From a virus, in IMG/VR virus record IMGVR_UViG_3300032731_000160, positions 1-25,773 of that record: a stretch of DNA of 25,773 nt; one strand, written 5' to 3'. This document shows, piece by piece, positions 3,307 to 5,363 of the stretch. Under the pieces are notes generated by a model. The model made no database searches. It had not been told where the DNA came from and saw only the letters and a list, made by a program, of their open reading frames with translations. The translations under genes and the position numbers were made by a program. The stretch's first letter is position 1, and each line of letters starts with the position of its first letter.

Positions 3307-3918
3307 ATGGAAGAGAACCTGGAACGTCGAGCTCTCAGTCTTGGAATCGAACTTCGGGCAGAGGAAGACGGCCGCACACTGGTCGGCACCGCGGTTCCCT
3401 GGGGCCAACTCTCCTTGCCGATCGGCTTCGGATTCCGCGAGATGTTCCGCCGCGGGACGTTCCGTGAAAGTCTCGCTGAAGACGATCCCGTTGCGCTCTG
3501 GAGCCACGATCCCGGGGAACTGCTCGGCCGGGCATCAGCCGGCACGATGCGTGTCCACGAGGGGGTTTCGGGCCTTCGCTACGAGATCGACCTGCCGAAG
3601 ACAGGCCGTGGCAACGACGTCCTCACCCTGGTCGAGCGTGGGGATCTCACCGGCGTGAGCATCTCTTTCTTGGCGTCGGACGACGCCTGGGAAACGAAGG
3701 AAGATGAGGAAATCCGCACGGTCAAGAAGGCCAGGTTGCGGGAGATCTCCCTGGTCACGTTCCCGGCCTATCCGCAGACGGATGTGGCGAAGCGGTCCTA
3801 CGATTCCTGGCGCTCCGAGATCCAGTCCTTCGTCGACGCCGGGAAACAGGCGGAATTGGATCACGAGACCCGGCACCGGGAATTGGAAATGGCCGAGGCG
3901 GATGGTGTGCTAGACTAG
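3307..3918 (+). CDS. HK97 family prohead protease (peptidase S78), 203 aa
   Basis: This serine protease is packaged in the prohead, where it cleaves the scaffold-like delta domain of the capsid protein and then itself before DNA packaging. Family signatures are visible: V-G-T-A-V-P-W near residues 26-32, a W-S-H-D motif with the likely catalytic His67, a D-L-T-G-V-S-I-S-F stretch with the likely nucleophile Ser118, and a R-E-I-S-L-V segment with conserved Glu146. Length fits the family. AAGGAG at 3290 precedes the ATG with about 11 bases of spacing; no better in-frame start is seen. The last 40 residues are charged and probably helical. It lies directly upstream of the capsid gene, as expected, but is separated from it by a structured untranslated leader. 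Confidence 0.93.
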   Translation: MEENLERRALSLGIELRAEEDGRTLVGTAVPWGQLSLPIGFGFREMFRRGTFRESLAEDDPVALWSHDPGELLGRASAGTMRVHEGVSGLRYEIDLPKTGRGNDVLTLVERGDLTGVSISFLASDDAWETKEDEEIRTVKKARLREISLVTFPAYPQTDVAKRSYDSWRSEIQSFVDAGKQAELDHETRHRELEMAEADGVLD

Positions 3919-3944
3919 CGTCCACAACAGAAACGGCGGAACGG

Positions 3945-4073
3945 CGTGTCCAGCGGGACAGGGCCATTGGCCTGAGCGCCGAAACGTGACGTAGCAGACT
4001 CGTTCCATTGGGGCGCTGAGCTACCGGACTCGCGAAAGCGGGGATGGGGTTCGGCGCCTTTTTTGTTGGCGCA
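3945..4073 (+). promoter_or_regulatory. Structured mRNA leader / attenuator-like element before the capsid gene
   Basis: The 167-base gap between protease and capsid genes is dense with potential stems. In order: TGTCC/GGACA at 3947-3960 (4-base loop), GGCC-ATT-GGCC at 3962-3972, an outer 8-bp stem GCGCCGAA (3976-3983) with TTCGGCGC (4050-4057) enclosing GTAGC (3991-3995)/GCTAC (4020-4024) and a GAAA-tetraloop hairpin CTCGC/GCGGG (4029-4042). The outer stem is followed almost at once by six T (4059-4064), like an intrinsic terminator. A rival stem GCGCC (4054-4058)/GGCGC (4068-4072) uses the same bases and would break the outer stem. I infer a terminator/antiterminator or a leader that stabilises or separates the capsid message. 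The pairings are seen directly; the function is inference. Confidence 0.55.
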
Positions 4074-4085
4074 AGGGAGAGCGAG

Positions 4086-5363
4086 ATGGATATCCGACAG
4101 TTGCTCGAAGACCGCAGCCGTGCAATAACCCGCGCCCGGGAGATCCACGACGCCGCGTCCTCGGACGGCAACCGCGCGCTCACCGCGGAGGAACAGACGA
4201 ACTATGCGGCTGCGATGGCCGAGCGCCAGCAGCTGACCGATCAGATCAACCGCCAACAGGAGTTGGACACGCTCGAGGCGGAAGAGCGCACCAGCGCCGG
4301 CCGCGTCCCCGACCCTGAGACGCCCGAGACCCGCACCCCCGAGACAACGGATGAGACGGAAGTCCGGCGTCTGGCGGACGTCGACCGTCGCTTCGACCAG
4401 TTCCTGCGATCGGGCAGGGAAGGTTCGCAGGCCGAGTACCGCGGTGGCGTCCACGGCGAGTACGTCGGCGGCGAGCTCCGCGCACTCCAGGCCGATATCG
4501 ACACCGCCGGCGGCTTCACGGTGGTCCCGCAGCAGTTCATCGCCCAGCTGATCGCGGATATCGACAACGAGGTTTTCATCCGTGGCATGTCCACGGTGCG
4601 GACCCTCACCCGGGCGGAATCGCTCGGAGTCCCGACCCGCGAGACGGATATCGAAGACCCGACGTGGACCTCAGAAATCGGCTCGGCCGACGAGGACACG
4701 GCGCTCGCTTACGGCAAGCGGGAACTCGAGCCGCATCCCCTGGCGAAACTGATCAAGATCAGCAACACCCTGCTCCGGAAGTCGGCCATCAGCATGACGG
4801 ACGAGGTCCGCACCCGCATGGCCTACAAGTTCGGGACGACGCTCGAGAACGTCTACCTGAACGGAACCGGTGTGGAACAGCCGCTCGGCGTGTTCACGGC
4901 CTCGTCCGATGGGATCTCGACCGGCCGGGACGTCTCCACCGGCAACGAGGAGACGTACCCGACATTCGACGGCCTGAAGACCGCCAAGTACACCCTGCGG
5001 CGGGCCTACCGCCGGCGGGCGACCTGGATCTTCCACCGGGACGGGGTGTCGAAGCTGGCCATCCTGAAGGACGGCGAGGGCCGGTACATCTGGCAGGACT
5101 CGGTGGTTCTGAACGAGCCCGACCGCCTGCTGGCGCTGCCGGTCCGGGACTCCGAGTACGCACCGAACACATTCACGACCGGCCTGTACGTCGGCATCCT
5201 GGGGGACTTCTCGTTCTACTGGATCGTGGACGCCTTGAGTCTGCAGATCCAGCGGCTCGTGGAGCTATACGCCCGGACCAACCAGACCGGGTTCATTGGC
5301 CGGCAGGAGACGGACGGCATGCCGGTGCAGGAGAACGCTTTCGTCCGGGTGACGCTGGCGTAG
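4086..5363 (+). CDS. HK97-fold major capsid protein with N-terminal delta domain, 425 aa
   Basis: This is the main shell subunit. Residues 1-65 are charged, Glu/Arg-rich and probably coiled coil, matching the removable delta (scaffold) domain. A Pro/Glu/Thr-rich linker at about 70-92 leads to the mature part; cleavage is expected somewhere between residues 95 and 135. The mature domain has the usual capsid landmarks: D-T-A-G-G-F-T-V-V-P at about 139-148, a K-I-S-N-T-L-L-R-K-S segment, a Y-L-N-G-T-G segment followed by Q-P-L-G-V, and a P-V-x-D-S-E-Y-A-P segment. I chose the ATG at 4086 because AAGGGAGAG sits 6-8 bases ahead and the upstream in-frame extension covers the structured leader. Protease before capsid confirms the assignment. 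Confidence 0.95.
   Translation: MDIRQLLEDRSRAITRAREIHDAASSDGNRALTAEEQTNYAAAMAERQQLTDQINRQQELDTLEAEERTSAGRVPDPETPETRTPETTDETEVRRLADVDRRFDQFLRSGREGSQAEYRGGVHGEYVGGELRALQADIDTAGGFTVVPQQFIAQLIADIDNEVFIRGMSTVRTLTRAESLGVPTRETDIEDPTWTSEIGSADEDTALAYGKRELEPHPLAKLIKISNTLLRKSAISMTDEVRTRMAYKFGTTLENVYLNGTGVEQPLGVFTASSDGISTGRDVSTGNEETYPTFDGLKTAKYTLRRAYRRRATWIFHRDGVSKLAILKDGEGRYIWQDSVVLNEPDRLLALPVRDSEYAPNTFTTGLYVGILGDFSFYWIVDALSLQIQRLVELYARTNQTGFIGRQETDGMPVQENAFVRVTLA

Follow-up and report, generated by a model that had tools for sequence, protein, structure and literature searches.

A predicted transcription terminator and probable RNA switch in front of the major capsid gene of a tailed phage, with a similar leader in one clade of capsid relatives

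Transcription-attenuating riboswitches and the leaders of ribosomal-protein genes are built from a structured domain, an antiterminator and terminator with one strand in common, and then the gene. Among phages, HK022 possesses the put RNA, a cis-acting structured RNA that affects termination but acts on early genes and on the polymerase itself. In phage lambda the tR' terminator between promoter and late genes must be passed; Q is a DNA-loaded protein, and switching is not done by the leader RNA. Terminators within a head/tail gene cluster that limit transcription are described for the Caulobacter gene transfer agent, where the terGTA elements (a set of three 150-bp repeats downstream of the first gene) are bypassed by the promoter-loaded protein GafZ (PMC11150451).

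The window analyzed here is the whole stretch of 25.8 kb (63% G+C) of an IMG/VR record, and its left part contains genes of terminase, portal, head maturation protease and HK97-type major capsid protein (Table 1). The protease gene (end at 3918) is separated from the major capsid protein gene (mcp, ATG at 4086) by a gap of 167 nt. The mcp reading frame is open as far back as an ATG at 4044, but 4086 was taken as start because of the Shine-Dalgarno sequence at 4073-4079 and the agreement with the starts of homologues. The best cultured relative of this capsid protein, from Streptomyces phage Chymera, is about 45% identical, and the protease-capsid gap of that phage comprises about 57 nt without a T-run.

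Like the riboswitches and ribosomal-protein leaders, the RNA of this gap shows a structured domain, a strand-sharing antiterminator and terminator and then a gene; in contrast with them it is located before the capsid gene of a tailed phage, and no known aptamer or protein site was recognised in it. As with HK022 put, this would be a cis-acting phage RNA affecting termination, but the pairing partner is an arm of the terminator. With lambda it has in common a terminator to be passed before late genes, although here the leader RNA itself is the proposed switch, and with terGTA a terminator within the head/tail cluster that would limit transcription, whereas the window has a single hairpin directly before mcp and a predicted RNA antiterminator. 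The original prediction had suggested a comparison with Rfam; at both gathering and permissive thresholds no credible match appeared, and the leader matches no riboswitch family described there. We group it with the attenuators, as a probable variant that stands before a tailed-phage capsid gene and is absent from Rfam. No attenuator in this position was found in the literature searched, from whose scope most subscription journals fall out.

Table 1. Genes and predicted RNA and promoter elements around the protease-capsid gap of the window.
Feature	Position	Strand	Basis
Head maturation protease gene, upstream neighbour	3307-3918	+	PHROG 80, E 2.5e-45
Weak extended -10 promoter candidate (speculative), TGTGCTAGACT, end of protease gene	3906-3916	+	read from sequence
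Three-way junction: P1 3942-3947/3976-3981, P2 3948-3951/3956-3959 (loop AGCG), P3 3961-3965/3969-3973 (loop ATT)	3942-3981	+	minimum-energy fold; geometry as in L117, L119, L121, L057; descriptor search
Switching strand: P1 3' strand, or rival stem with 4050-4057 (terminator 3' arm)	3976-3983	+	exact 8-bp complement
Antiterminator 5' strand, CGTAGC; pairs with 4020-4024	3990-3995	+	motif and pairing common to L024, L027, L117, L057; changed in L119
Inner hairpin of antiterminator, CGTTCC ATT GGGGCG	4001-4015	+	folding of 3986-4026 and of transcripts of increasing length
Predicted intrinsic terminator: hairpin 4011-4059, GAAA loop 4034-4037, T6 4059-4064	4011-4064	+	dG -34.8 kcal/mol, z -6.26
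Shine-Dalgarno of mcp, AAGGGAG	4073-4079	+	read from sequence
Major capsid protein gene (mcp)	4086-5363	+	PHROG 10, E 1e-68; Pfam PF05065, E 1.5e-55

The most prominent element is the hairpin 4011-4059, which as a stable stem with an immediately following T-run is a predicted intrinsic (Rho-independent) terminator. The stems and the T-run are found where the original prediction had placed them: the hairpin with the GAAA tetraloop is exact (4029-4033/4038-4042), and the outer stem (4011-4022 with 4048-4059) leads directly into the six T. Compared with shuffled sequences the region 4010-4065 has a z-score of -6.26 (none of 200 shuffles was as stable) and the whole of 3945-4073 one of -3.3. No other strong hairpin on either strand of the window abuts at least five T in a row; the internal loops of this one caused a simple terminator scan to overlook it. 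Its 18-mer GTTCGGCGCCTTTTTTGT was followed to other loci and dismissed as a lead, since at L086:421-480 it belongs to an ordinary terminator before an apparent tail-tube gene; it also occurs in an A+T-rich region of L087.

By itself the upstream half (3919-4005) has no unusual stability (z = +0.6), and the folds located there must therefore be argued from comparison with relatives. This value is also what would be expected from a plain, unregulated intrinsic terminator with upstream folds arising by chance, which could trim readthrough from upstream, reduce capsid mRNA by a constant proportion or be ignored by an antiterminated late polymerase. Bare terminators without a leader are indeed present in short gaps before mcp at three related loci (L076, L157, L176), and the terminators of the Caulobacter gene transfer agent are bypassed by an antiterminator protein (PMC11150451). 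Against this explanation, one clade conserves both junction and antiterminator, and the window repeats their layout with a chance probability of about 1e-4 (see below); we regard a plain terminator as unlikely.

For the comparison, viral contigs supplied capsid-protein relatives (40-68% identical), to which further relatives of three of these were added, giving 123 distinct loci; under a single strict definition, a terminator was a compact hairpin of at least six pairs, at -12 kcal/mol or lower, with a T-run behind it. Such a terminator lies within the last 100 nt before mcp in 17 of the 123 loci. As about 14% of the sampled relatives have one there, the earlier view that this structure is unusual between two morphogenetic genes needs some qualification. 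The density amounts to 1.39 per kb in these last 100 nt versus 0.09 per kb in 2.6 kb on each side (about 15-fold), and similar enrichment is seen in the first 80 loci alone (1.14 versus 0.06 per kb). The terminator-bearing loci occupy about ten places in the capsid-protein tree, as counted by eye, and their stems are mostly unrelated in sequence.

Several further arrangements were observed in this collection. Four loci (L049, L056, L058, L060) have in common a terminator-like hairpin (AAGGGTCGC..GCGGCCCTTTTT and variants) within the head operon, about 750-780 nt before mcp. In the last 170 nt before mcp (2486) of L101 the terminator 5' arm GGCGTCGCGGGCTG is found in two copies, and the upstream one could pair with the terminator 3' arm instead, giving another possible switch. 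Within the last 75 nt before mcp, L043, L065 and L089 exhibit an apparently conserved second stretch (GGCGCCCGCC..GCGGACGCC) between terminator and mcp, perhaps another type of leader. The 302-nt gap before mcp (1045) of L019 is packed with direct and inverted repeats of CACGAATT(T/G)CACGAATT.

A structured leader is conserved in one clade of the capsid tree, formed by L024 (leader incomplete at the contig end), L027, L117, L119, L121 and L057. It contains a three-way junction, in which P1 encloses a P2 of four pairs (loop AACG, AATG or AGCG) and, after a single base, P3, with one or two further bases before the closing strand of P1. The terminator follows the junction, and in five of the six members an antiterminator hairpin lies between them. 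Predicted separately for each sequence, the junction is the minimum-energy fold in L117, L119, L121 and L057; in L027 it is not, though P1, P2 and P3 can all be written. The sequence of P1 differs completely among the members but is paired wherever both strands are present. After the junction all members except L121, in which no clear antiterminator was found, show TCGTAGC (TCGTGGT in L119), which pairs with GCTGGCGA (GCTAGCGA, ACTGGCGA) in the terminator 5' arm with one base bulged, i.e. the 3' side of the antiterminator is the 5' arm of the terminator. Outside the clade L327 possesses an analogous hairpin of different sequence, TCGAATCAC with GTGATCCGA, which encloses the same inner CGCCGATGCG.

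The original prediction was to be judged by covariation. A composite alignment (A10) of seven members including the window was assembled by hand, as MAFFT misplaces the stems when L057 or the window is included. In it 12 of 20 pairs are changed on both sides (mean of shuffled alignments 5.0, none of 500 as high); since it was made to fit, the percentage of paired cells means little, but the changes themselves are real. Compensatory changes occur in P1, P2 and P3 and, in part, in the antiterminator. For the clade the expectation is thus borne out, with junction, antiterminator and terminator kept by compensatory changes, but the window's own nearest capsid relatives (about 51% identical) are without such a leader.

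A short hairpin, GCCGATGC, is found in the leaders of L024, L027, L117 and L327 in P3 and again within the antiterminator (slightly changed in L024 and L117), and its counterpart in the window, CCATTGG, occurs likewise in both. This repeated hairpin might serve in both places as a site for binding a protein.

In order of elements and in junction geometry the window agrees with the clade: P1 of six pairs, P2 as GTCC-AGCG-GGAC, one base, P3 of five pairs and two bases. Both the geometry and the P2 loop pattern ARYG agree if a three-base P3 loop is permitted. In 5.1 Mb, counting both strands and redundant loci, a descriptor with a four-base P3 loop detected nothing but the clade; with three bases allowed the window was the sole addition, a relaxation chosen with knowledge of it. 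With a broader descriptor four unrelated sequences were added in 5.1 Mb, which corresponds to a chance of about 1e-4 per 167-nt leader, and a stricter one matched none of 20,000 shuffles of the window leader. A covariance model (R1) built on three clade members finds L119 and L024 and misses the window; as it misses even the clade member L057, it is too narrow for judging membership. Pattern scans of viral contigs with the P2-P3 core or the antiterminator gave no convincing new members, the match to L201 being borderline (E 0.0037). In the capsid tree the window is neither sister of this clade nor near it, and its neighbours there have no leader. This means that the leader moved between phages or was often lost, or that the likeness is convergent. 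On balance we favour, with moderate confidence, a common origin of the window and clade leaders, and the former presumably works like the latter.

In the window the antiterminator would form by pairing of 3991-3995 with GCTAC at 4020-4024 inside the terminator 5' arm. It therefore shares a strand with the terminator and would exclude it, as in an attenuator, and this relation is kept in five clade members. Its stability shows no excess over shuffled sequence. Folding of growing transcripts gives junction plus antiterminator up to 4026-4046, and from 4059 on the terminator prevails. The rival stem that had been proposed to use the terminator 3' arm exists as exactly 8 bp, GCGCCGAA (3976-3983) with TTCGGCGC (4050-4057), and if the antiterminator is forced in folding seven of its pairs (3976-3982 with 4051-4057) form unprompted. 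Since this stem consumes the 3' strand of P1, junction and readthrough state compete in the window, as in known riboswitch designs. By eye it was not recognised in L027 or L119, and it may be special to the window.

These alternative pairings also bear on the role of the hairpin. It ends 27 nt before the start codon of mcp, beside the Shine-Dalgarno sequence, and capsid mRNA must be abundant; thus it might serve the messenger, protecting its 5' end after processing or, with the U-rich stretch, loading ribosomes, while termination would be incidental. A stabiliser, however, needs no T-run directly abutting the stem, as seen in the relatives with up to nine T, and the clade conserves a pairing that breaks the hairpin, which makes such a role quite improbable. 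Still more remote appears the explanation that the junction is a put-like RNA modifying the RNA polymerase to pass terminators, rather than pairing with the terminator. A structured RNA does lie immediately upstream of a terminator within a late operon here, and HK022 put is a precedent, but there is no Rfam match whatever, and the conserved antiterminator hairpin would be superfluous.

We return to the attenuator and consider it rather probable that this gap attenuates transcription of the capsid gene in cis. The original reading as attenuator or switch is supported in part, by the enrichment of terminators at this spot and by the clade-conserved junction and antiterminator, and an attenuator is the reading with most support. 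The element is probably switch-like, as hairpins occupy the same spot in other phages and one group has a nearly identical folded design. Polymerase that has passed through the protease gene, or that started at a promoter close to the end of this gene, would transcribe the leader, which would fold first as three-way junction and then as antiterminator hairpin. Once 4011-4059 is made the terminator could capture the 3' side of the antiterminator, and polymerase would leave at 4059-4064, before mcp; such termination presumably occurs in vivo. If the antiterminator persists, aided by pairing of the P1 3' strand with the terminator 3' arm, readthrough would yield capsid mRNA. Some signal, perhaps a phage protein, would set this balance; our guess is that a protein made by the phage tips it.

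Concerning the origin of the transcript, no consensus sigma-70 promoter was found in the gap of the window. Sigma-70-like promoters between protease and leader are present in two of the 17 terminator-bearing loci (L025, L327), compared with one of 107 loci without terminator and none of 655 random windows; in some phages this may therefore be where capsid mRNA begins. Upstream of the junction, about 190-235 nt before mcp, L027, L117, L119 and L121 have in common the motif GGAAACA, possibly the -35 element of a phage or ECF-type promoter.

A particle needs hundreds of capsid subunits but little protease, and both are made from adjacent genes. If the proposed attenuator is real, a terminator switch just before mcp would be a simple control of timing or dose, and capsid production could respond to a signal. 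It is possible, if doubtful, that these leaders constitute an undescribed class of structured RNA in distantly related tailed phages, which would sense a phage or host factor and antiterminate capsid transcription. The recurrence of terminators at this position makes it a testable idea that the protease-capsid junction acts in these phages as a gate for capsid transcription.
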